A stretch of DNA of 64,000 bases from Alteromonadaceae bacterium Bs31 (GTDB taxonomy: Bacteria > Pseudomonadota > Gammaproteobacteria > Pseudomonadales > Cellvibrionaceae). Made by a program: the position numbers and the translations under genes. The notes below the pieces were generated by a model. That model saw only the letters and a list, made by a program, of their open reading frames with translations, made no database searches and was not told where the DNA came from. Location of the stretch: contig FXAI01000001.1 of NCBI GenBank assembly GCA_900177435.1, positions 683,361 through 747,360 of the forward strand, written 5' to 3'. Below, piece by piece: positions 47,714 to 60,004 of this stretch (its first letter is position 1; every line of letters starts with the position of its first letter).

Positions 47714-47828
47714 GGTGGCCCAATCTGGTCCCCCCGCAACAGTTCGCTGTGAACTCCGCCAGGTCCGGAAGGAAGCAACGGTAGCAGTACAATTGTGTGC
47801 CGGGGTGTGGCTGGGTTGGGTCCCCTCC
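47714..47828 (+). ncRNA. ffs: 4.5S signal recognition particle RNA
   Basis: RNA of the bacterial signal recognition particle that binds Ffh and targets membrane proteins. The diagnostic apical loop GGTCCGGAAGGAAGCA lies at 47762-47778, with the asymmetric and symmetric internal loops on its flanks (CGCC/ACGG; GCAACAG; GTGTGCCGGGG). The ends pair through CCCAA/TTGGG and outer G/C runs, giving about 115 nt as in E. coli (114). Exact ends are estimated from pairing. Confidence 0.94.
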
Positions 47829-47951: not shown

Positions 47952-49724
47952 GTGCTTGTGTTGAATCTCAGCAAAAAACAGAAAATTCGTATTAAGCACA
48001 CCATGCTGGCGATAGCTGGCGGATTACTGCTTACCGTGGCCTTGTTTTACGCAAACTTTGTTAACCTTACTTTTATCAGTCTGCCAACCTTGGTGTTGTC
48101 TGTGACGGTATTCTGGACGGTTAACTTTGCCATATTGGCTGCGCTTTTCAGCGGTTTTAATGAGCGTTTGTCCGACCCATCCCTCAGCCTTGTTCAGATG
48201 TACTGGGCAAGTACTGCCGCGCTGTTGGGCTTTTTAGTTTCGCACGAGCTCGATACGCTTTTCTATTTACTTCTGTTGGTGATCACTGTTTTTGGTATTT
48301 TCCGGGTAGCTGTAGTTAAGTTTCAAATATTGTGCTTTTACATCGTACTAATGTTACTTGTCACAATTTTAGCTCGGCACCATTATTTCTTTCGTGAAAG
48401 TATACTTGTGAACGACCTTATCCTTTGGTCAACCTTCTGCTTTTGTACCGCCATCCTTATGTCGATTTGTAGCTCAATAATGCTATTGAGAGCGCGGTTG
48501 AGGGAGAAAAATGAGCAGTTACAGCAGGCACTGGAAATTAAAAGCCTTTTTCTCGCGAATATGAGTCATGAAATTCGTACTCCAATGAACGGGGTATTAG
48601 GAATGCTGGAGCTCAGTTTGCTGGGCGAGTTGGACAGCAAAACAAAAAATCAACTGAAGATCGCAAAAAATAGCGCAACCAGCTTACTCCGGATACTTAA
48701 CGATATACTCGATTTTTCAAAAATTGAAGCGGGTAAATTGCTTATTGAGGAGGACGAATTTGATCTGCAGCTGCTATTGAGAGCTGTGCATGTGAGCTTT
48801 GCTCAAGCGCTTGAGGAAAAGGGCCTTGGATACGAACTAAGCGTTGCAGCGTCGGTGCCGGATATAATTAAAAGTGACCAAACCCGCCTGAAACAGATTT
48901 TAATAAACCTCATAGGGAACGCGATAAAATTTACGCCTAAAGGCAAGATAGAGATCCGGGTGAATACTGAGCCCACAGGCTGTGAGCCCGGTGGCATATC
49001 GTCTGACAATAAGGAGCTCCTGCCTGATAGTAGCGAGCGTATTGAATTGCATATTAGCGTGAGCGATAGCGGTATTGGGATAGAAAAAGATAAGCTTGAC
49101 CATCTTTTCGATTCCTTCACTCAGGCAGACCCTACAACAACGCGCAACTATGGCGGTACCGGGCTTGGTCTAGCTATTACTAAAGAGTTATGCGAATTAT
49201 TGAATGGTGGCATAAGTGCTACCAGCAGGGAGGGCAAGGGTAGCGTTTTTAACTTTTGGATTAGCGTAGAAAGCCCAAAAATACCGAAGGTTTCTCTTGC
49301 CTCTGAGAGTAAAAGCGAGCGTGCGCAATACAGTTTTGCAGGTAAACGCTTACTGGTTGTTGAAGACAATCCTGCGAATCAGGAATTAATACTGCATACC
49401 ATGGAGCCTTTAGGGGCTGATATTGAGCTCGCAAGTAACGGTGCCGAGGCATTGGGCATTCTTAGTATGGCGAGTGAGCGAAGAGTAAATTTTGATGCAG
49501 TAATGATGGACTGCCAAATGCCAGTAATGGATGGTTTTGAGGCCTGTAAGAAAATACGTTCTACCGAGAGACTGGGGCGCTTATCTAAAATACCAATTAT
49601 TGCCATTACTGCTTCTGCCATGGACGGCGACAAAGAAAAATGCCTGCAGGCGGGTATGAATGATTACCTTACCAAGCCTCTTAACCTGGATCTATTAAAG
49701 GAAACCTTGCATAAATGGCTTTAG
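47952..49724 (+). CDS. Hybrid sensor histidine kinase
   Basis: 590 residues: an N-terminal membrane region with about six helices (15-185) lacking a large periplasmic domain, a coiled linker (185-200), a HisKA domain with H206 in MSHEIRTPMNGV, and a HATPase domain (NLIGNAIKFTPKG; DSGIGIEKDKLDHLF; GGTGLGLAI). A receiver domain (about 460-590) follows with phosphoacceptor D520 in VMMDCQMPVMDG and a TKPLN lysine loop. The signal is probably membrane-linked or intracellular. There is no HPt domain, so a separate phosphotransfer protein is expected. The start is GTG at 47952 with AAGGAAG upstream. Confidence 0.92.
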   Translation: MLVLNLSKKQKIRIKHTMLAIAGGLLLTVALFYANFVNLTFISLPTLVLSVTVFWTVNFAILAALFSGFNERLSDPSLSLVQMYWASTAALLGFLVSHELDTLFYLLLLVITVFGIFRVAVVKFQILCFYIVLMLLVTILARHHYFFRESILVNDLILWSTFCFCTAILMSICSSIMLLRARLREKNEQLQQALEIKSLFLANMSHEIRTPMNGVLGMLELSLLGELDSKTKNQLKIAKNSATSLLRILNDILDFSKIEAGKLLIEEDEFDLQLLLRAVHVSFAQALEEKGLGYELSVAASVPDIIKSDQTRLKQILINLIGNAIKFTPKGKIEIRVNTEPTGCEPGGISSDNKELLPDSSERIELHISVSDSGIGIEKDKLDHLFDSFTQADPTTTRNYGGTGLGLAITKELCELLNGGISATSREGKGSVFNFWISVESPKIPKVSLASESKSERAQYSFAGKRLLVVEDNPANQELILHTMEPLGADIELASNGAEALGILSMASERRVNFDAVMMDCQMPVMDGFEACKKIRSTERLGRLSKIPIIAITASAMDGDKEKCLQAGMNDYLTKPLNLDLLKETLHKWL

Positions 49725-49806
49725 TTTTTACAGCTTGAACTTCAGATGTTTAGATCAAATAGAGAGGGTATGAGCGCTCAAACCCCCTCACGCCTCAAGG
49801 TGAAAA

Positions 49807-51867
49807 TTAAAAGTAAACACGATAAGTTAATGCTGGTTGAATCCCTATACCCTGCGTATCGATGGTTTCCACTTTGTCTCCCGGGGCGCTAACCTTGTCG
49901 TAGTCCAGGCTTCGTTCGCTGATATTCGAGTAGTTAAGTGCATTGATGATGTCGAGAATAATAGCCGACTCTTTTCCAAACGTTGTTGTGTCCCACTGCA
50001 TACGTATGTCCAGTCGATTGTAGAAGGGCAGTCGATTGGAAAATGCTTCGCCGTATATGGGTAGCACACTGTCTTCGAACCAAGGGTTTTCCTGTACACC
50101 TGTTATAGGCGTGTAGGCTTTACCGCTGCGCACAGACCAGCGCCATCCAATATTGAATTTTTCTCTCATCTGGTAGTTCATTACCCAGTTAGCAATCACC
50201 GGGGTATCGAGGAAGTATTCTTTGGTATCGTCAGTGGCCAGGTTGGTACGATTGCTTTCACTAAAGCTCAATGCAAACCAGCCCCACCATTTATCCGTGC
50301 GGTTTTTGTTTAACATGATGTCTACACCACGAGCTTCACCCTCTGTTTCGTTTACGTAGCGCAGCTCATTGGTGTCCTCTTCTGCTGGAACCGCACGTGG
50401 CAGGTTTTGCAGTTCCTTGTAATAGGCTTCCACATTTACGCTCCATCCGTTGCCGAGCTCTTGCTCGACACCGACCGTATAGTGATCTGCGGAAGGTGAT
50501 TTAAGCTCAGGATTTCCAGTTTGCGGTAAAACTGTTTCCAGATCGGGAAAGCGGTTGTAGCTGCCAGCTTTTACACTGAATGTGGTTCTTTCTGCCAGCT
50601 TCCAGTGAGCTGCAGCGCGGGGGTGTACAAACTCCTCATCGGTGTAGTCGTTGTGCTGGTATTGCACACCCAGGTCGAACACAAGCGATTCAGTTGGCAT
50701 CCAGCTACTGTCCACATAATGTGAGCTTTCCACCACATTTAGGGTGATTTTTTCTTCCAGTGTGCCTGCGCGCTTCAAGTCGCAATCCGGATCGAATTCG
50801 GTACACACAAATAGCAGTGAATCCACTTCATAGCGCCAGTCGTGATCGGTGTATTGGCTACCCACTCTCACCCGAAATTGCTCACCCACTGGAATACTCA
50901 ACATGCCCTTCACTGTACTCTGAGCATTTTCTGCTTCTTGAGAATAATCTGCGCCCCAATACAGGTTTTCCTGATCGTTAAGCAGGCTGTAACCCAGCTT
51001 CCACTCCGTGCCGCTATCGCCAAAGTATTCCCACAAAGCGCTAGCGCCGTTATATTTCTCTTCCAGCCTTGCATCGCCTTCGAAATCCGGGTTACTGCGC
51101 ACAAAATCGGCTTCTTCCGTAAGTACCGCTTCTATGTTGTCCATCGCCCCGTTTGCGGATATAGACAGGCGATGATTATCGCTACTGTTCCAAGTGTATT
51201 TTGCCTGGTAGTCAGTTTCTTTCGGAACTTCTGTAATTTCAATGCCATCGTCCGACAAGTCTTCGCCAGCAACAAATAAATCGAGCAAGCTTCGACGGGC
51301 AGATACGAAAAAGGCTGAATTTTCAGTTAGGCCACTCTCCACAAAAATACCAGAACGCAACATCGAGAAGTCTACAACGGCCTGCAGGTCCTGGTTTTTT
51401 GGCTCTCGTAGTTTTACATCAAATACAGCCCCTGTGGCCCCGCTATACTCCGGCCCGAAGCCTGCAGAGTGCATTTGGAAATCATGAAGGATGAATTCAC
51501 TAAAAACAGAGACACCAAATTCATGGAAAATGTAGCTGGCGGGCATAAAGTCCACCACGAAAACATTGTCCGCCGGGCTTGAGCCACGAACAGCCGGTTC
51601 CTGGCTTTCGGAGTAAGAGACGCCCGGTAGAGCGAAAATGGCGCCCAGAGGGTCTCCCATTGCGCCAGCGGTTTCCACTAGCTTTTCTGCATCCTCGGTG
51701 ATAATGGTGTAATCACCCGTGCGCTGAGCACCAATCACGAGGGTTTCCTCCACTTGCGGGTCTGCCTGTGATTCTTGCACCCCTTCGGTATTTTGTTCTG
51801 CGGCCAAGGCCTGTTGCATGGCGAGGCAGGTTAAGAGAAGCGTAGTACTCCTGAAACGACTATTCAT
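49807..51867 (-). CDS. TonB-dependent receptor
   Basis: Outer-membrane active transporter. Signal peptide residues 1-23 (ALAA cleavage). A TonB-box-like EETLVIG lies around 40-46. The plug domain (about 60-170) has LPGVSYSESQEPAVRGSSPADNVFVVDFMP and GFGPEYSGATGAVFDVKLR, and a beta barrel runs to the C-terminal aromatic strand TYRVYF. At 686 residues it is of medium size. I start at ATG 51867, which has AAGGAC upstream and leaves a proper signal peptide; an upstream in-frame start adds 29 residues. Substrate unknown; siderophore or oligosaccharide are both possible. Divergent from the OmpV-like gene. Confidence 0.9.
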   Translation of the reverse strand: MNSRFRSTTLLLTCLAMQQALAAEQNTEGVQESQADPQVEETLVIGAQRTGDYTIITEDAEKLVETAGAMGDPLGAIFALPGVSYSESQEPAVRGSSPADNVFVVDFMPASYIFHEFGVSVFSEFILHDFQMHSAGFGPEYSGATGAVFDVKLREPKNQDLQAVVDFSMLRSGIFVESGLTENSAFFVSARRSLLDLFVAGEDLSDDGIEITEVPKETDYQAKYTWNSSDNHRLSISANGAMDNIEAVLTEEADFVRSNPDFEGDARLEEKYNGASALWEYFGDSGTEWKLGYSLLNDQENLYWGADYSQEAENAQSTVKGMLSIPVGEQFRVRVGSQYTDHDWRYEVDSLLFVCTEFDPDCDLKRAGTLEEKITLNVVESSHYVDSSWMPTESLVFDLGVQYQHNDYTDEEFVHPRAAAHWKLAERTTFSVKAGSYNRFPDLETVLPQTGNPELKSPSADHYTVGVEQELGNGWSVNVEAYYKELQNLPRAVPAEEDTNELRYVNETEGEARGVDIMLNKNRTDKWWGWFALSFSESNRTNLATDDTKEYFLDTPVIANWVMNYQMREKFNIGWRWSVRSGKAYTPITGVQENPWFEDSVLPIYGEAFSNRLPFYNRLDIRMQWDTTTFGKESAIILDIINALNYSNISERSLDYDKVSAPGDKVETIDTQGIGIQPALTYRVYF

Positions 51868-52090
51868 TTTTGTTGTCCTTTGATGAATAAGTAAAATTTG
51901 TGGAGCTACTATCCCAAAAACGAGGTAAACACCCTGTAACACTCTGTGGCGCATTGTTGCAAGATGTTTCAGTGTTTTGGGCAGGCTAGGCCAAAAATGG
52001 GTCTGGAACGTTCAGTAACATACTGTTACAGGTATAAAATGCGTCATATCGGTTACAATTCAATATCACTAAACTCACTGTCGAACGGTT

Positions 52091-52960
52091 ATGAGAAGTT
52101 CTAAATTTTTAGCAGCTTGTTACCTGGCGCTGTGCACTCCACACTTGGCTCAAGCTGCCGATATAGCCGGTGCTGTACAAAATAACGGTAGAGCTGTCGA
52201 TGAAGACGGCGGTTATTTTGAAATCGGTTTTGCCACGGGTTATTTGCACATGCCCTATGACACCTCGCAGGAGCAAGAAACAGCCGACCTTTTTATTGGT
52301 ATTGATGCTAGCTTCGAATTTCGTAAGAAGGGCTTTTTTACCGAAGTTGTACAAGGTACTCAGGATGGCTTAAACCTCGGCTATACCCTTTGGCACAATA
52401 ATACTTGGGTGGTTGATTTTCTGGCTGCGAGCATGAACCGCTTTTATGACCCGGATTTGGACAACAAAATTAAGCCGGAAGATGACGAAGATACCCGAAA
52501 TAAAAAACTGTATAACAGAAATAGCTTTTATTTGGGAACCGGTTTAAGAATTTCACATTATCTTGACGAATACGTCATACAGTATCGCCTCGTTACCGAC
52601 ACGCTGGATGATAATGGTGTGATCAGTACACTGCGTCTAGGCCGTGGCTGGCAATATCGAAATTGGAATTTTCACTGCATCTTAAGTGCGCAATATACCT
52701 CCGCCAAAACGAATAACTATTGGTTCGGGGTTGAGCAGTGGCAGGCAACAGAAAGGTACCCCGCCTTCAGTCCGGATTCATCACTTTCCTACAGTGCACA
52801 ATTTGGCCTCGCGAAACCGCTTTCAGAAAAATGGGTGGCCAGGTTGTTTACCGGGTGGGAGCAGTACCCAAGTGAAGTCCGTGGAAGTCCATTCGTGGAT
52901 GACAGTGACGGAAGCTACATGGCTTTCACCGTTTCCAGAGTATTTAGTTCGGGGCACTAA
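52091..52960 (+). CDS. MipA/OmpV family outer-membrane protein
   Basis: 289 residues with a signal peptide (1 to about 22, AQAAD) and a small beta barrel ending in an aromatic strand near MAFTVSRVFSSGH. GGYFEIGFATGYLHMPY, the charged loop near residue 140 (DLDNKIKPEDDEDTRNKK), SFYLGTGLRISHYLDEY and LRLGRGWQYRNWNF match the MipA/OmpV family, whose members either scaffold murein synthases or are stress-induced porin-like proteins. It is the first of four same-strand genes (DUF3019, response regulator, kinase) and is 7 bp from the next. Confidence 0.85.
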   Translation: MRSSKFLAACYLALCTPHLAQAADIAGAVQNNGRAVDEDGGYFEIGFATGYLHMPYDTSQEQETADLFIGIDASFEFRKKGFFTEVVQGTQDGLNLGYTLWHNNTWVVDFLAASMNRFYDPDLDNKIKPEDDEDTRNKKLYNRNSFYLGTGLRISHYLDEYVIQYRLVTDTLDDNGVISTLRLGRGWQYRNWNFHCILSAQYTSAKTNNYWFGVEQWQATERYPAFSPDSSLSYSAQFGLAKPLSEKWVARLFTGWEQYPSEVRGSPFVDDSDGSYMAFTVSRVFSSGH

Positions 52961-52967
52961 ATTAGCA

Positions 52968-53363
52968 ATGAAAATTACGCAAGGAATATGGATACCCGCG
53001 TTTATTGCACTACTGGTGCCTATGCTGGCCTACGCGCAGCAAAACGAGGAGCTATTACGTGTGAAGCCTGATCGCTGTATCGCTTTACGACAAGGCCAAT
53101 ATTGCTATCAAAAATTGGAGTTTAGCTGGGCAACATCCGGGGACCAAAAATTTTGTTTGTTAAGCAAAGGCAGAGTGGAGCCTCTGGTGTGTTGGCAGGG
53201 TAAAAAATTAACTTTGTTTGAATACGAATTCAAATCGTCCCAGGACCAGGCCTTCGTATTGATCGAGCTCAGCAGCGGTAAAATCCTGGATGAGGTTGAA
53301 GTGGATGTAGCGTGGGTTTACAAAAGCAGTAAGAAAGTTTCTACCGGTTGGAGGTTGTTTTGA
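52968..53363 (+). CDS. DUF3019 family exported protein
   Basis: 131 residues with a signal peptide (1 to about 23, AYAQ). The mature part carries LRVKPDRCIALRQGQYCYQKLEFSW with paired cysteines, then KFCLLSKGRVEPLVCWQGK with another pair. This is the Cys pattern I associate with DUF3019, a family seen beside OmpV-type proteins and two-component genes in marine gammaproteobacteria. Probably periplasmic, disulfide-bonded. The stop shares its last base with the ATG of the regulator gene, so translation is coupled. Confidence 0.8.
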   Translation: MKITQGIWIPAFIALLVPMLAYAQQNEELLRVKPDRCIALRQGQYCYQKLEFSWATSGDQKFCLLSKGRVEPLVCWQGKKLTLFEYEFKSSQDQAFVLIELSSGKILDEVEVDVAWVYKSSKKVSTGWRLF

Positions 53364-54049
53364 TGGAAAATATATTAGTTGTTGAGGACGACGCTTCGCT
53401 ATCCGAGTGGATATCAGATTACCTCACCGATCACGGTTACCAGGTTACAGTTGCCAACCGCGGCGATACCGCTATTGAGCTAATTGAATCTGATATGCCA
53501 GACCTGGTGTTGCTGGACATTATGCTCCCGGAAAAAGACGGCTTTGAGGTTTGTAAGGAAGTGCGGCGCTTTTACCCGAGCCCAATCTTGATGATGACAG
53601 CATGTAGTGAAGAGAGTGATGAAATCCTCGGGCTGGAACTGGGTGCCGATGACTACATTAATAAGCCTGTGCGCCCGAGGGTGCTGTTGGCTCGGATTAA
53701 GGCATTGTTGCGGCGAAACGACGAGGGCTCCTCACAAACAATGATTCGCAATTTTGGTGCATTAAAAATTGACTCCAAGTCAAAAACAGTGAGCTACGAA
53801 GATGCACCGATTTCCTTAAGTTCTAACGAGTTTGATGTTCTTTGGTTGCTGGCATCGCAAGCGGGCAATGTGGTAAGCCGCACAGAGCTTGTCAGCGAGT
53901 TGCGCGGAATTGAATACGACGGCTTCGACCGCTCTATTGATATTCGTGTTTGTCGCATTCGTAAGAAGCTCAAGGATGACCCGAACAACCCCCGTCGAAT
54001 CAAAACCATCCGAGGTAAAGGTTATCTGTTTACTGAGGATGCCTGGTAA
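53363..54049 (+). CDS. OmpR-family response regulator
   Basis: 228 residues. The receiver domain (1-120) has acidic residues in VVEDD (E8-D10), phosphoacceptor D52 in LVLLDIMLPEKDG, T82 region MMTACS and the NKPVRP lysine. A winged-helix DNA-binding domain (about 130-228) follows, with LSSNEFDVLWLLASQAGNVVSRTEL and SIDIRVCRIRKKLKDDP...IKTIRGKGYLF. ATG 53363 overlaps the DUF3019 stop (TGATG). The cognate kinase starts 2 bp after its stop. Confidence 0.94.
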   Translation: MENILVVEDDASLSEWISDYLTDHGYQVTVANRGDTAIELIESDMPDLVLLDIMLPEKDGFEVCKEVRRFYPSPILMMTACSEESDEILGLELGADDYINKPVRPRVLLARIKALLRRNDEGSSQTMIRNFGALKIDSKSKTVSYEDAPISLSSNEFDVLWLLASQAGNVVSRTELVSELRGIEYDGFDRSIDIRVCRIRKKLKDDPNNPRRIKTIRGKGYLFTEDAW

Positions 54050-54051
54050 AT

Positions 54052-55329
54052 ATGCGTAACCTGAGTGTCTCTTTAATAGTGGTGGTGATTGCCTCCATTA
54101 TTGCTTTTGGTTGGATTTTGAATCAAATCTACATCCACTCTTCTCCCGTACAAAATGCATCAGAAAATGCAACTCAGGTTAAAAATGCCACCGAAGTGTT
54201 TGCTGTCGTGAATGCAAGTGAAGGTAGAGCTGACTTTATTAAGCACTGGAATAGCAATAGTGAAATTAAACTGAGCGTTATAGCCCTGGAAAATTTCCCT
54301 CTTCCTGTAGAGCTGGAATCTTCCTTTTCGGCAGATAAACCGCTGGTGTTGGAGTCTGATGAAGGAATAAGTATTCATTTCCCTCTTAAAGATGGTGGTG
54401 AGATATTGGCTATTTCAATTCCCGAAGAAAATGTAGTTGCTCAGGAAAATAATCTAGAGCTGATACTCACGCTAAGCTTTTATGCCGGGGTAACCACGAT
54501 AATCCTTATTTGGATATGGCCATTAATTCATCAACTAGCACGCTTGCGTGACGCTGCGGTTCATTTTGGCAAGGGGGATCTTGGCGCTCGGGTGAAACTT
54601 GCACGATTTTCTTATATACGTGAAATAGAAACTGAATTTAACCGCATGGCAGACAGAATTCAGTCTCTAATCAATGATAATAAATTACTTAGCAGGGCGG
54701 TTTCACACGATTTGAAAACGCCCGTAGCACGTTTGCGTTTCGGTCTGGATGCCCTAACAGAAACGGAAAGTGAAGATCAGCGAAAGCGCTACGCAGAGCG
54801 GGTAAATCGTGATCTCGAAGAGATGGAATCTCTCATCGAAACCTTGTTGCAATATGCTCGATTGGATGAAAGCAGAATTCAGCTTGCTCCAGAACCTATT
54901 GGCCTGAGTAAGCTTGTTGATCTGCTGGTTCAGACTCAAATTAGCGATGGTCTGGAGCTGGATTTTGACAATCAGGTGAAGTATGCGCAAATACGAGCAG
55001 ACAAGCGCTATATCACCATGCTGATCAACAATTTGTTGAGCAATGCGCTTCGGCATGCCAATCATCAGGTAAAAGTGTCTCTGGTGGAAATGAAAGCACG
55101 CTACATTTTGAGTTTTGAAGATGATGGCCAGGGAATCCCCGATGATGAGCGAGAAAATGCCATCAAGCCGTTTTGGCGCGGAAAAAAGGGCAGAGGACAG
55201 AAGGGGCACGGAATGGGGCTTGCGATTGTCTCTCGTATCGCCGAATGGCATGGTGCAACGCTCGATATTTCCGACTCAAAGGCCCTCGGCGGAGCTTGCG
55301 TAAGCCTCAGTTTTTCTTCCTATAATTAA
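54052..55329 (+). CDS. Sensor histidine kinase (RstB-like)
   Basis: 425 residues. TM1 (about 5-25), a periplasmic domain of about 110 residues, TM2 (about 140-162), then a HAMP domain (LRDAAVHFGKGDLGARV), HisKA with H219 in AVSHDLKTPVARL, and HATPase with NNLLSNALRH, DDGQGIPDDERENAIKPFWRG and GHGMGLAIV. Membrane-bound partner of the regulator directly upstream. Because the gene set includes OmpV and DUF3019 envelope proteins, a periplasmic or outer-membrane stress input is plausible. Nothing in the periplasmic domain identifies the ligand. Confidence 0.93.
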   Translation: MRNLSVSLIVVVIASIIAFGWILNQIYIHSSPVQNASENATQVKNATEVFAVVNASEGRADFIKHWNSNSEIKLSVIALENFPLPVELESSFSADKPLVLESDEGISIHFPLKDGGEILAISIPEENVVAQENNLELILTLSFYAGVTTIILIWIWPLIHQLARLRDAAVHFGKGDLGARVKLARFSYIREIETEFNRMADRIQSLINDNKLLSRAVSHDLKTPVARLRFGLDALTETESEDQRKRYAERVNRDLEEMESLIETLLQYARLDESRIQLAPEPIGLSKLVDLLVQTQISDGLELDFDNQVKYAQIRADKRYITMLINNLLSNALRHANHQVKVSLVEMKARYILSFEDDGQGIPDDERENAIKPFWRGKKGRGQKGHGMGLAIVSRIAEWHGATLDISDSKALGGACVSLSFSSYN

Positions 55330-55602
55330 TTGCGTTACATCACCTCTGTACTGCAAAAGTGCAAATCAAATTGGCTTGCTCATTCATGGTGAGTTGCGCC
55401 TGTCACAATAAGCTGCTTAGTAGCGCAAATCCTCACTTTTTTCGTGCAATTAGCCCTTCTTCTCAAGCTGGCATACTTGCTGCTATTCCATTCTAAAGAT
55501 TGGCCTGCCCCTCAGCGGGTCTAATTAAAAACTGTTAAAAACAGATCTTTCCGGGTGAGCTTTGCAACAGGGAAACCAAATTTAAAGTAGAGGCTTTTAT
55601 TT

Positions 55603-55863
55603 ATGATTGAAGGCGTGAGAACAACACCCGCTGTAGATAGCTCAAGTGCGGATGTAAAAATCTGGGCGCAAAAGCACTGGGGGTTGCCACAGGAAACAAA
55701 ACTCCTGGTGAGAGAGGTGCGAATGGATGAGCGTAATGTGCCAGCTGTTGTCACCGTGATAGCCGTGCTATCGCTAGCGGTGGTGGACAAAACCATCAAA
55801 ATCGAGAAACGTATACGCGACATTCGGGAGTCGGATATTCAGGCAGTGGATATCTGGAATTGA
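55603..55863 (+). CDS. Small protein of unknown function
   Basis: 86 residues, no signal or membrane segment. The pattern LLVREVRMDERNVPAVVTVIAVLS then KTIKIEKRIRDIRESDI recalls a family of small proteins with VxEVxCxxPGCPPxETVI and KIHKxxxEVTxxDV motifs known beside nitrate and molybdenum genes. Here the cysteine motif is replaced (MDERNVP), so any metal or redox role of that family would be lost. There is no strong ribosome site before ATG 55603. It lies alone between the kinase gene and dnaX. Confidence 0.55.
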   Translation: MIEGVRTTPAVDSSSADVKIWAQKHWGLPQETKLLVREVRMDERNVPAVVTVIAVLSLAVVDKTIKIEKRIRDIRESDIQAVDIWN

Positions 55864-55905
55864 CCCCGCCGGCTCCAGGGAAGTGGCTTCGAGCCCAACG
55901 ACGGG

Positions 55906-55911
55906 TATAAT
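55906..55911 (+). promoter_or_regulatory. -10 box of the dnaX promoter
   Basis: A perfect TATAAT followed by GCGCTCC, 44 bp before the dnaX ATG. No good -35 box lies at the right distance (TGGCTT at 55884 is the nearest). Confidence 0.5.
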
Positions 55912-55955
55912 GCGCTCCTTAACTCTATAGATCGCAACTCGAGACCCTTTCCCTT

Positions 55956-57824
55956 ATGAGCTATCAGGTTCTGGCGCGCAAATGGCGGCCGGGCAATTTC
56001 CGTGAAATGGTCGGCCAGGAGCATGTTCTCAAGGCCTTAATTAATGCCTTAGACCACAATCGACTTCATCATGCCTATCTCTTTACCGGCACGCGAGGTG
56101 TAGGAAAAACAACCATCGCCCGGATTCTGGCTAAGTGCCTGAACTGTGATTTGGGTGTCACCTCTACCCCGTGTGGCGAATGCAGCTCCTGTGTGGAAAT
56201 CAGTGAGGGGCGCTTTGTCGACTTGATTGAGGTGGATGCGGCCTCCCGCACCAAGGTGGAGGATACCCGCGAGCTGCTCGACAATGTGCAATACGCACCC
56301 ACTCGTGGTCGCTACAAGATCTACTTGATCGATGAAGTGCACATGCTCTCCAATCACAGCTTTAACGCCTTGCTGAAGACCCTGGAAGAGCCTCCTGAGC
56401 ATGTGAAATTCCTTCTGGCAACGACCGATCCCCAGAAACTGCCCGTTACCATTCTATCTCGCTGTTTGCAGTTCAATCTCAAGAACATGAGCCCGGAACG
56501 TATTGTCGGGCACCTGCAACAGGTGTTGGAGCAGGAAGTGGTGCCGGTTGAAGAGGCCGCTCTGTGGCTGTTAGCCCGTTCGGCAGATGGCAGTATGCGA
56601 GATGCTCTCAGCCTCACCGATCAAGCGATTGCTTATGGCAATGGCAAGATCACTGAGCCGGAAGTGGCCGCTATGCTGGGTACCATAGATCACCAGCTGA
56701 TCCAAAAACTGATGCAAGGCCTGATTGCTGCTGAAGCGACAAAAATACTAGAGGCTGTTGCGCATTTCGCCGAGCACGCGCCGGACTTTAATGCAGCTCT
56801 GTCAGACCTGTTAACTCTGTTGCATCGCATTGCCATTGCGCAAGCCATGCCAGAAGCGCTGGACAATAGCTTTGGTGACAGGGAGCAAGTACTGGGGTTT
56901 GCAGAACAACTGACATCTGAAGACGTACAGCTTTTCTATCAGACAGCACTGATTGGACGCCGGGACCTGCATCTATCGCCGGATGAGCGCAGTGGTTTTG
57001 AAATGACATTGCTGCGTATGCTGGCGTTTAAGCCCCAAGGCTTGGTTGATGTACCCAGGCAAGGGCTCTCTAGCAGCGCCACAAGGTCACAAGTGGCAGA
57101 GCCGGTGCCACAGAGTCCGAGTGATAATCACCCCTCAGCTCCCACTAAACCGGAGGAGCCCTTAACAAAAAAGCCCCCAGCTGAAGTCGAGCCCGCGCCA
57201 GTAGTGCCGGAAGCCTCGATTTCAGCGCATGTGATCGAGCAGCAGCCTGAGCAAGAGGCAGAGAATAATAACCAGCAAGTTAAAGAGCTTTTAAAGCAAC
57301 AAATAAAAGCCATCACCGGAAAGGAAGGTATAAGCTCGCCCGCTGTTGAGCCGGCACCAGCGCTAAATAATGTAGACACAAGTGAAGCAAAATTACCCGA
57401 GCCTGCTGCTGTTGGCGAAACACTCGATGCTATAGAGCAGTTTGATAATGCCCGTTGGTTGAAAGTTTTCTTTAAACTCAATATCAAAGGCACCCTGCAC
57501 AGTGCTACCTCCAATGCAGTCTTGATGGGTAATGATGGCGTAACTTTATTTTTCGCTCTGGATGTACAGCGCGGCACATTATTTAATGAAAGTCACAATC
57601 AGCAGCTGGCAGATTTGTTAAGTGAATTTTTTCAGCAGCCGATTAAAGTCGATATTAATTTACAAGCTCTTCCCGAAGGACTGGAAACGCCGTCTCAGTG
57701 GGCTGAAAGGGATAAGCAAGAAAGGCATCAGCACGCTCTGCAGCAACTGGCGGTAGACCCGGTTATACAAACCCTGCAACGGGAATTTGGTGCACAATTA
57801 GATGAAAACTCCGTATCGTATTAG
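55956..57824 (+). CDS. dnaX: DNA polymerase III tau subunit (with gamma by frameshifting)
   Basis: Clamp-loader ATPase subunit that also ties the polymerase cores and helicase together. N-terminus SYQVLARKWRPGNFREMVGQ; Walker A GTRGVGKTT; four zinc cysteines in CLNCDLGVTSTPCGECSSC; DEVHM Walker B; sensor and lid segments through about residue 360. A Pro/Glu-rich linker (about 370-480) and the tau-specific C-terminal domain (about 490-622) complete it. A recoding site at codons 404-406 should also yield a gamma form of about 409 residues. ybaB and recR follow in the standard dnaX-ybaB-recR order. Confidence 0.96.
   Translation: MSYQVLARKWRPGNFREMVGQEHVLKALINALDHNRLHHAYLFTGTRGVGKTTIARILAKCLNCDLGVTSTPCGECSSCVEISEGRFVDLIEVDAASRTKVEDTRELLDNVQYAPTRGRYKIYLIDEVHMLSNHSFNALLKTLEEPPEHVKFLLATTDPQKLPVTILSRCLQFNLKNMSPERIVGHLQQVLEQEVVPVEEAALWLLARSADGSMRDALSLTDQAIAYGNGKITEPEVAAMLGTIDHQLIQKLMQGLIAAEATKILEAVAHFAEHAPDFNAALSDLLTLLHRIAIAQAMPEALDNSFGDREQVLGFAEQLTSEDVQLFYQTALIGRRDLHLSPDERSGFEMTLLRMLAFKPQGLVDVPRQGLSSSATRSQVAEPVPQSPSDNHPSAPTKPEEPLTKKPPAEVEPAPVVPEASISAHVIEQQPEQEAENNNQQVKELLKQQIKAITGKEGISSPAVEPAPALNNVDTSEAKLPEPAAVGETLDAIEQFDNARWLKVFFKLNIKGTLHSATSNAVLMGNDGVTLFFALDVQRGTLFNESHNQQLADLLSEFFQQPIKVDINLQALPEGLETPSQWAERDKQERHQHALQQLAVDPVIQTLQREFGAQLDENSVSY
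57152..57226 (+). promoter_or_regulatory. Programmed -1 frameshift cassette in dnaX
   Basis: Parts in order: Shine-Dalgarno-like GGAGGAG (57152-57158); 8-nt gap; slippery heptamer A AAA AAG in frame (57167-57173, codons ACA AAA AAG); 6-nt spacer; 12-bp stem GCTGAAGTCGAG (57180-57191) with CTCGATTTCAGC (57215-57226), one G-U pair. After slipping, the -1 frame reads GCC CCC AGC TGA, stopping at 57184. This matches the three-part E. coli dnaX signal that makes gamma. Confidence 0.88.
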
Positions 57825-57851
57825 TTGAAAAATTGTTAGAGGAGAATAGCG

Positions 57852-58172
57852 ATGAAAGGCTTGGGCGACATAATGAAACAGGCTCAGGAAATGCAGGAAA
57901 AAATGCAAAAAATGCAGGACGACATAGCCAGCCTGGAAGTTGAAGGGCAGGCTGGTGCCGGCTTGGTGAAGGTTGTAATGACAGGCCGCCACGATATTAA
58001 AAAAGTGGATATAGACTCGAGCTTAATGACGGAAGAGAAAGAAATGTTGGAGGACTTATTGGCTGCAGCGGTGAACGATGCAGTGCGAAGAGTTGAAGAA
58101 GAAAATAAAAGCCGGCTTGGTGATTTAACCGGCGGTTTTCAGATGCCTCCTGGTTTCAAAATGCCGTTTTAG
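57852..58172 (+). CDS. ybaB: YbaB/EbfC nucleoid-associated protein
   Basis: 106-residue DNA-binding dimer. The N-terminal helix [48 protein letters not shown] and the C-terminal [15 protein letters not shown] are typical. Its usual neighbours dnaX and recR flank it here. AGAGGAG precedes the ATG. Recombination or nucleoid roles are suggested for the family. Confidence 0.95.
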
Positions 58173-58190
58173 GCATGGAAGAATAACAGC

Positions 58191-58784
58191 ATGTTTTCTC
58201 CCTTAATAGATCAGCTAATAAGTGCCTTACGAATATTGCCCGGTGTTGGCCCAAAGTCCGCCCAGCGCATGGCCTTGAATTTACTCGAGCACAACAGAGA
58301 TGGGGCAATAAACCTGGCGGAGGCACTTCAACAGGCCGCTGACTCCGTGACGCGCTGCGAGCAGTGTCGGACTTTAACGGAGCAGGCAAGTTGCAGTATT
58401 TGTGCAAACCCGAGAAGAGATCGCTCGCAGATATGTGTGGTGGAAACGCCTGCGGATGTACTGGCCTTGGAGCAGTCCGCGATGTTTAGCGGCATCTACT
58501 TTGTATTACTGGGTAAACTTTCTCCTATCGATGGTGTGGGTCCAAAAGAGCTTGGCATTGACATGCTCGAAGAGAGGCTTATCACAGAAAAGATAGAAGA
58601 GGTGATTATTGCCACTAACCCAAACGTAGAGGGTGAAGCTACATCCCATTACATTGCCGAGCGGGCAAAAAAACACGGTATTAAAGTTTCTCGTATTGCC
58701 CACGGCGTGCCCATTGGTGGTGAGCTTGAGTACATTGATGGCAGTACCCTGGCACATGCACTAAGTAGTCGTCGGGAAGTTTAG
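58191..58784 (+). CDS. recR: Recombination protein RecR
   Basis: Ring-forming partner of RecO/RecF that loads RecA at gaps. The N-terminal helix-hairpin-helix [17 protein letters not shown] (about 13-29), zinc cysteines in CEQC...CSIC (about 57-72) and a Toprim domain (about 80-175, [29 protein letters not shown]) are complete. 197 residues is normal. It lies 18 bp after ybaB. Confidence 0.96.
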
Positions 58785-58807
58785 GCGATCGGGAACAATA
58801 GGTAATT

Positions 58808-60004
58808 ATGTCACATCCCCTGTTAAAACAAGAAATTCATTGGGTCGATAGCGAAGCAAGTTTAAACTCTTTATGTGAAAAATGGCGCTCCTGCGAAATG
58901 CTGGCGGTTGATACCGAGTTTATGCGTAGCCATACCTACTACCCCATCGTTGGCTTGTTGCAGGTTAATGATGGTGAGGCGAACTATCTGATCGACCCCA
59001 CAGTAATTTCGGACTGTTCTTCTTTCTCGGATATCCTGCTGGATGAAAAACTAATCAAGGTTCTGCACTCCTGTTCAGAAGACTTAGAGGTTTTCCAGTC
59101 TGCCCTCGGTGTTGTACCCAGAAATATTTTTGATACGCAAATTGCTGCCTCAATGTGTGGCCACGGTTTTTCTGTGGGGTATGCGCGCCTTGTTATGATG
59201 GTGCTGGAGCAGGAAGTGCCAAAAGAGGAGACGCGATCGGACTGGCTGCAAAGGCCATTAAGTCAATCACAAATAGATTATGCCGCCATTGATGTAGAGT
59301 ATCTTTACCAGTTGGCGACGATTCTAATACAAAAACTAAAAGCTGAAGAGAAGTTGGGGTGGTTAGCGGAAGACTGCCAGAAACTACTTTTCAATTACAA
59401 AGAAAATCAGGGTGTGGAATTCAGTTACTTGCGTTTTAAGCAGGCATGGCGGTTGAGCAACAGTAAACTGGCGGTGTTAAAAGCACTGGCCACCTGGCGC
59501 GAGAAAAAAGCACGCAAGCGAGATATTCCACGCAATCGTGTGGTAAAAGAGCATACCCTTATGGAGTTTGCCATGATGCTACCGGAGCATGTGGGGCAGT
59601 TGCGCAAATTCGATGGCATGACTGAGCGAATGATCCGTAGCGACGGCGCTGAGATAATAGACATTATTAATCAGAGCCTGGACGGAGACCCAGGGGATTT
59701 CCCCGACACCCTGCCCAGACCGCTTAGCAGCACCGAAAACAAGTGGGCTAAACATTTGCGAGAACGGGTATTACAGATTGCCGAAGCGTTCGATTTAGCA
59801 CCGGAAGTGTTAATGAAAAAGCGCGATTACGAAGCCCTGACACGGTTTTTTATGCCCAGGGAAAACCCGGCACTTGAAGACGTGCTCGAGCAGCTAAAAG
59901 CATTTATAAAGGGCTGGCGATATGATCTGCTTGCAGAGCCCTTGAGTGAAACTATATACAGCAAAACGGTTGCCGCTGAACAAGCGCCACCTTCTACCGA
60001 TTAA
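58808..60004 (+). CDS. rnd: Ribonuclease D
   Basis: 3'-5' exoribonuclease in tRNA 3'-end maturation. The DEDD catalytic residues appear in VDTEFMR (D-E), HSCSEDLEVF (D) and the IDYAAIDVEYL region (D, with Tyr). One or two HRDC domains follow (about 215-290 and 320-390). 398 residues, slightly longer than E. coli RNase D (375). It starts 23 bp after recR and is followed 14 bp later by ycgL, an order common in this class. Confidence 0.94.
   Translation: MSHPLLKQEIHWVDSEASLNSLCEKWRSCEMLAVDTEFMRSHTYYPIVGLLQVNDGEANYLIDPTVISDCSSFSDILLDEKLIKVLHSCSEDLEVFQSALGVVPRNIFDTQIAASMCGHGFSVGYARLVMMVLEQEVPKEETRSDWLQRPLSQSQIDYAAIDVEYLYQLATILIQKLKAEEKLGWLAEDCQKLLFNYKENQGVEFSYLRFKQAWRLSNSKLAVLKALATWREKKARKRDIPRNRVVKEHTLMEFAMMLPEHVGQLRKFDGMTERMIRSDGAEIIDIINQSLDGDPGDFPDTLPRPLSSTENKWAKHLRERVLQIAEAFDLAPEVLMKKRDYEALTRFFMPRENPALEDVLEQLKAFIKGWRYDLLAEPLSETIYSKTVAAEQAPPSTD

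Follow-up and report, generated by a model that had tools for sequence, protein, structure and literature searches.

Does the dnaX gene of Alteromonadaceae bacterium Bs31 code for one protein or, through a ribosomal frameshift like that of Escherichia coli dnaX, for two, the full-length tau and a shorter gamma? The question is raised by a segment inside the gene in which a Shine-Dalgarno (SD)-like stretch, a slippery heptamer and a stem-loop follow one another. The window referred to throughout is the whole stretch of 64,000 nucleotides that was analysed, and positions are counted from its first letter. From the sequence data reported below, the segment very probably works as a signal for −1 programmed ribosomal frameshifting like that of E. 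coli dnaX, by which gamma would be made.

The dnaX gene of strain Bs31 and its putative frameshift signal

The gene corresponds to an open reading frame on the forward strand (55956..57824) that begins with the ATG at 55956. Its zero-frame product, tau, consists of 622 amino acids and matches the NCBIfam equivalog NF005942 (DNA polymerase III subunit gamma/tau) with 818 bits, the cut-off being 613; a Pfam search assigned residues 232–358 to domain III and residues 497–620 to tau domain V (PF12170). The zero frame is open to 57824 and has no stop right after the putative shift site; thus, the gene does not have the reversed layout discussed below for some relatives.

All the elements of the signal were read from the sequence of the forward strand. 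The slippery heptamer A_AAA_AAG (57167..57173) is in the X_XXY_YYZ phase and its A-run is exactly six residues long. The SD stimulator GGAGGAG (57152..57158), internal to dnaX, precedes it by 8 nt (10 nt if counted from the GGAGG core) and forms the best anti-SD duplex of its own linker. On the other side, 6 nt past the heptamer, a stem of 12 uninterrupted pairs, one of them G.U, was both read and recovered by folding; its 5′ arm (57180..57191) and its 3′ arm (57215..57226) enclose a loop of 23 nt (57192..57214). In the −1 frame the heptamer is followed by GCC CCC AGC TGA, and this TGA (57182..57184) falls within the 5′ arm. The predicted gamma (55956..57184) would therefore be 409 residues long, with KK-APS as its C-terminus; ending past the end of domain III (358), it leaves domains I–III intact. 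The original prediction had been made in these very terms (heptamer in the correct frame, GGAGGAG at 8 nt, a 12-bp stem with a 23-nt loop at 6 nt, a −1 frame closed after three codons, a gamma of about 409 residues), and it is borne out on each of these points, as is its statement that all three parts of the E. coli signal are present, their order and spacing being correct. Moreover, as it had suggested, the loop is paired internally in the minimum-energy fold, where 57192–57193 pair with 57209–57210 and 57195–57198 with 57204–57207. The fold of 57174–57240 has an energy of −25.9 kcal/mol (z −3.66), equalled in stability by only one out of 200 shuffles, and that of the wider region 57140–57270 has a z of −2.96.

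How much of this could be expected by chance was then evaluated part by part. A6G is common by itself, since it occurs 29 times in the window (17 on the forward and 12 on the reverse strand). The SD and the fold of the window's dnaX each rank first in comparison with the other in-frame positions of the linker at least 45 nt away; the duplexes were scored with a general anti-SD, because no match to 16S rRNA was found in the genome's own assembly (G000, 46 contigs). When the stretch was shuffled by mononucleotides 20,000 times, a helix of 12 bp at the anchored position (i.e., starting 4–14 nt past the heptamer) arose in 0.075% of the shuffles; among 1,545 background linker positions of the family, the figure is 0.58%.

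According to the mechanism that we propose, the anti-Shine-Dalgarno of a ribosome translating dnaX would pair with GGAGGAG, and the stem-loop would be met while tRNA-Lys occupies AAA-AAG. A fraction of the ribosomes would then slip back by one base (from A AAA AAG to AAA AAA), read GCC CCC AGC, stop at TGA and release the 409-residue gamma, which would comprise the ATPase domains and domain III and would lack the polymerase-binding tau domain; the ribosomes that do not slip would stay in frame and complete the 622 residues of tau. Since the −1 TGA sits within the 5′ arm, termination of the slipped ribosome would presumably go along with a first opening of the stem. We infer from E. coli that the slip takes place, how efficient it is, and that gamma is used in the clamp loader. 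The shift in that organism has been tied to its single tRNA-Lys, with anticodon TTT (PMC5009743), and a tRNA-Lys pattern search in the genome of strain Bs31 gave one match, also with anticodon TTT, though the pattern might miss a CTT gene that has diverged.

Conservation of the signal in the genus and in the family

The genus set included eight genomes and the family set 144, 139 of which had a dnaX match. Three partial matches (G058, G127, and G031) were left out, and 136 family genes were read; three of them (L190, L192, and L253) end early and show no heptamer, so that 133 could be judged. The original prediction would have been refuted by a lack of conservation of the heptamer and of the stem in close relatives, and the two parts behaved differently. 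The heptamer is conserved: an in-phase copy, together with an SD of the GGAG/GAGG type and a −1 stop within three codons, was found in 8/8 genomes of the genus. Conservation is poorest, on the other hand, for the stem: the anchored helix measures at most 12, 10, 10, 9, 5, 6, 6, and 5 bp in L118–L125, respectively (L118 is the window).

In the family, exactly one in-frame A_AAA_AAG beyond codon 360 is present in 105 of the 136 dnaX genes, and at all 105 sites a −1 stop follows within 12 codons (after one codon in 54 cases and after three in 29); for 86 of the 105 sites the stop lies within three codons, as compared with 19% of 14,511 background linker positions. The distribution of A6G over the three phases of the linker is 104/2/1; in codons 1–360 the motif is lacking in any phase, and in the last 150 codons its distribution is 1/3/1. 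Furthermore, 104 of the 120 Lys-Lys pairs of the linker are coded by A|AAA|AAG, while the Lys codons of the linker are mixed (345 AAA and 276 AAG, sites included). The SD and the fold were ranked against the other in-frame linker positions in 103 genes, since one of the 105 is truncated and another has no background positions: 91 of the 103 have their upstream anti-SD duplex, scored with the general anti-SD named above, among the top 10% of the linker, whereas for the downstream fold 47 reach the top 10% and 68 the best quarter. The mean fold z is −1.31 at the family sites and −0.20 at 206 background positions. The A-run consists of six residues at 84 sites and of seven at the other 21. The heptamer ranges in position from nt 1142 to nt 1730 of the gene, in a linker that varies in length and sequence. 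The family counts are not independent, the genomes being related; the argument for selection rests on the persistence of one heptamer in one phase amid a changing linker, and from these sequence comparisons we conclude that the dnaX frameshift signal is under selection.

A_AAA_AAG is absent from 28 of the 133 judgeable family genes, three of which have C_CCA_AAG; the signal is thus dispensable in some lineages. A second tRNA-Lys (CTT) was considered as a cause of the loss of the heptamer and is not supported: the eight genomes of genus g14, all without heptamer, show the TTT gene; among the matches listed, those of the CTCTTAA type belong to G052 (no heptamer) and to G011 and G012 (heptamer present).

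As regards the structure downstream, an anchored helix of at least 7 bp is present in 46 of 104 family genes (44%) vs 20% of the 1,545 background positions. The original prediction had also pointed to compensatory changes in the stem. These were looked for in the window, L119, and L120, the three genus members sharing the stem, in a table built by position, because MAFFT, when aligning the three, introduced a break into the window's 5′ arm. With the genomes in this order, T-A, C-G, and T.G are found at one pair, and A-T, C-G, and C-G at another, so that two pairs have changed on both sides; above the second of them, L119 and L120 have a broken pair, and their stems measure 10 bp. Covariation in the stem is weak: apart from these two pairs, the pooled test over 48 sister pairs of the family gave 39 double-sided compensations vs 39.9 expected, with no excess. 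In the same test, 239 broken pairs were counted vs a mean of 277 under random substitution, and none of 200 replicates was as low. Since fewer pairs are broken than under the null and compensations are not in excess, a structure is favoured, though one that seems to be rebuilt repeatedly and not closely conserved.

Distribution, variant heptamers and swapped frames

The presence of the signal was also checked in named groups, i.e., in the best 80 of 584 relatives, a set overlapping the other samples; 78 were scored, and groups were taken from NCBI ranks. Among these best 80 of 584, the signal was found in 10/10 Cellvibrionales and 8/17 Oceanospirillales, and in none of the three Marinobacteraceae and the 37 Pseudomonadaceae; one unplaced member of Pseudomonadales lacks it, and the records without an order name are split five to five. 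Its absence from the Pseudomonas of this set fits the statement of a review (PMC3290774) that P. aeruginosa dnaX expressed in E. coli gives tau only. Many Pseudomonas dnaX genes (such as L042, L064, and L101, at nt 1109 of the gene) share an in-frame G_CTA_AAG, with a −1 stop four or nine codons on, which may be due to chance, the surrounding protein being conserved.

A quick FastTree phylogeny was built from the N-terminal 358 residues (299 tips, 291 of them labelled), presence being defined as A_AAA_AAG, C_CCA_AAG or the reversed layout. On this tree, at least 25 changes in presence are needed, vs a mean of 93 when the labels were shuffled 100 times. With equal costs, 13 or 15 of the changes are gains, depending on the state of the root; with a present root and the cost of gains doubled, there are 3 gains and 28 losses. 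Judging from this pattern, the signal is inherited, but lost or gained repeatedly, and the tree cannot separate gains from losses.

Since gamma is apparently dispensable in places, as in the Pseudomonadaceae of the best 80 relatives and in the tau-only P. aeruginosa dnaX expressed in E. coli (PMC3290774), one might ask whether the ribosome does slip while the benefit consists in a pause or in a lower output of tau, rather than in a functional gamma. If the short product matters, however, it is expected to keep the ATPase and domain III and to end near the site, and this is what was observed at 105/105 family sites, where it retains the ATPase and domain III region and ends within 12 codons. 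We therefore regard a benefit without a functional gamma as very unlikely, and prefer the production of gamma as the role of the signal.

In the order, an even sample of 145 genomes gave 143 with a match, from which 60 genes were picked by hand (one to three per family); 58 of them were parsed (all except L299 and L306). A heptamer followed by a −1 stop no more than 12 codons on was found in 30 of the 58 genes and in 21 out of 37 further families; in two of the 30 (L258 and L313), the heptamer lies within runs of 10 As. Sampling of the class beyond the order gave 63 genomes with a match, from which 20 genes were read (L332 is truncated); in three of the 20 the heptamer is followed by a −1 stop within nine codons, L334 and L336 having the heptamer inside runs of 9 and 10 As, respectively. 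In L340, also from the class, the zero frame ends at a run of 11 As and the −1 frame is open for 209 codons. L334, L336, and L340 are candidates for transcriptional slippage.

These runs of 9 to 11 As (L258, L313, L334, L336, and L340), together with the slippage-type dnaX genes known from the literature (PMC3711429 and PMC5009743), raise the question of whether RNA polymerase might slip on the A-run of the window as well, gamma being translated, as in Thermus, from a mixture of mRNAs. Against this, the run in the window contains only six As, and those in the family six or seven, while slippage is reported at 9–10 As; moreover, a ribosomal slip agrees with the strictly kept −1 phase, with the SD, and with the nearby −1 stop. 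Transcriptional slippage was thus rejected for the window on account of its short A-run, and is in our opinion highly improbable as the source of gamma; the ribosomal frameshift remains the preferred reading.

The heptamer itself is not the same in all members of the family. In all three members of genus g21 (L185, L195, and L203), A_AAA_AAG is replaced by C_CCA_AAG, with GGAGGAG upstream, a −1 stop after three codons, and stable downstream folds; the relatives from other genera that are closest in N-terminal sequence identity (L166 and L189) both carry A_AAA_AAG. In the family as a whole, CCCAAAG shows no phase enrichment (5/3/3), and the case for C_CCA_AAG thus rests on its context in one genus. 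According to one study (PMC4066793), the most efficient E. coli heptamers with stimulators are C_CCA_AAG, G_GGA_AAG, and A_AAA_AAG. Two single cases from other families, which are only leads, were noticed as well: L290 has G_GGA_AAG at nt 1118 of the gene, with AGGGAG upstream, a −1 stop at two codons and a palindrome just after, and L298 has C_CCA_AAG at nt 1229 with a −1 stop at eight codons.

A different arrangement was found in family f21 of the order, for which five genomes gave six dnaX matches (L317 was left out of the comparison of layouts). In three genes of its genus g52 (L318, L320, and L321), the zero frame stops one codon past A_AAA_AAG (KKN, KKG, and KKS), while the −1 frame runs on for 294, 254, and 244 codons, respectively, and ends in tau domain V, above the Pfam cut-off in 3/3. 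Their shift sites contain an SD-like stretch and no more than six As. Each of the three has a different stop (TAA, TAG, and TGA), and this speaks against a sequencing error common to all. In two of the three genomes (G163 and G198), no second dnaX match was retrieved at E up to 1e-60; the third (G248) has two unlike copies, the reversed L321 on contig 100 and L316 on contig 218, full-length and without the heptamer, and the second copy may be a contamination. L319, from the sister genus of g52, has the standard layout. If the swapped frames are real, tau in genus g52 would need the slip.

The last explanation to be weighed, namely that there is no recoding at all and that Lys-Lys is kept for protein reasons, next to an SD-like stretch and a hairpin that are coincidental, might appeal to the low complexity of the linker, to the frequency of A6G in the window, and to the variable stem of the genus, but it is scarcely credible in view of the almost fixed codon choice, of an SD enrichment and a near −1 stop that have no protein reason, and of the three f21 relatives, which would require the shift for tau; conservation of Lys-Lys for protein reasons was rejected, in particular, on the codon choice and on genus g21, which is without Lys-Lys and yet has another slippery heptamer.

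With the ribosomal frameshift as the preferred reading, the data of this section suggest that the dnaX frameshift of the order is probably a module that can be re-wired: the site is retained together with its SD and its near stop; the heptamer is swapped among the three most efficient ones (A_AAA_AAG, C_CCA_AAG, and possibly G_GGA_AAG); and in g52 the frames would be flipped, so that tau needs a ribosomal −1 slip on six As at a signal resembling that of E. coli. If true, this would represent a natural proof of an efficient slip, and the reversed genes hitherto mostly attributed to transcriptional slippage would have their clearest ribosomal parallel in g52.

Comparison with known dnaX systems and gene neighbourhood

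The reversed genes in question were described in a source (PMC3711429) according to which tau is made by the shift in 17 dnaX genes from 12 genera; 12 of the 17 have A-runs of 7–10 and were attributed to transcriptional slippage. They share with our sequences the gene and its two products, and their layout is that met in L318, L320, and L321. They differ from the window, whose layout is standard, and from the f21 genes, which have only six As and an SD-like stretch instead of the 7–10 As of the 12. An unpublished reversed candidate with E. coli-like stimulators has been mentioned for Chlorobium (PMC5009743). Thermus thermophilus dnaX likewise yields tau and gamma from one gene, but there slippage takes place on nine As (PMC3711429), i.e., a longer run is needed than the six As of the window, which are accompanied by ribosomal stimulators.

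The closest resemblance is with E. coli dnaX. The signal occupies the corresponding place in the same gene, after domain III and before the tau-specific part, and it has the same A_AAA_AAG, the SD core 10 nt upstream, a downstream stem-loop, and a near −1 stop. The two differ in that the E. coli stop comes after one codon (K-K-E) and that of the window after three (K-K-A-P-S); moreover, the stop of the window is inside the 5′ arm, and its 12-bp stem carries a 23-nt, internally paired loop. The Rfam model RF00382, which finds E. coli (L254) at 96.8 bits, gave no match at its threshold of 35 bits in the window, L119, L120, L121, L124, L125, L185, L203, and L320, and a search of positions 54000–60000 of the window retrieved no DnaX element at E up to 5; an annotation based on RF00382 would thus miss this element.

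As for the literature, PMC3711429 (2013) presents a logo of the E. coli-type dnaX signal from nine genera, and the review PMC3290774 (2012) states that signatures of dnaX frameshifting are not retained in most bacteria other than enterobacteria. In the open-access literature that was searched, we found no report of a dnaX frameshift for the family of the window, nor of a reversed gammaproteobacterial dnaX. The kind of mechanism is known, and this lineage is a new, well-supported example of it. The signal is ordinary in kind; it is useful for its spread and for two natural experiments. With the signal in 105 of 136 family genes and in none of the 37 Pseudomonadaceae among the best 80 of 584 relatives, the purpose of gamma can be addressed by comparing close relatives, and in the flipped genus g52 the output of tau would directly report the efficiency of the slip.

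The gene neighbourhood offers a further likeness, in that the annotated gene order of E. coli K-12, dnaX-ybaB-recR, is the one read in the window, where we take the two genes 3′ of dnaX, named from their translations without a family search, to be ybaB and recR. A small SRP RNA was observed at 47723–47819 of the window, about 8 kb upstream of dnaX; in the genus mates L120 and L125, it lies no more than about 300 bases upstream of the gene. The stretch between the SRP RNA and dnaX in the window (47952–55329) contains what we assume to be a hybrid histidine kinase, a receptor-like protein, a two-component pair, and others, and is perhaps an insertion.
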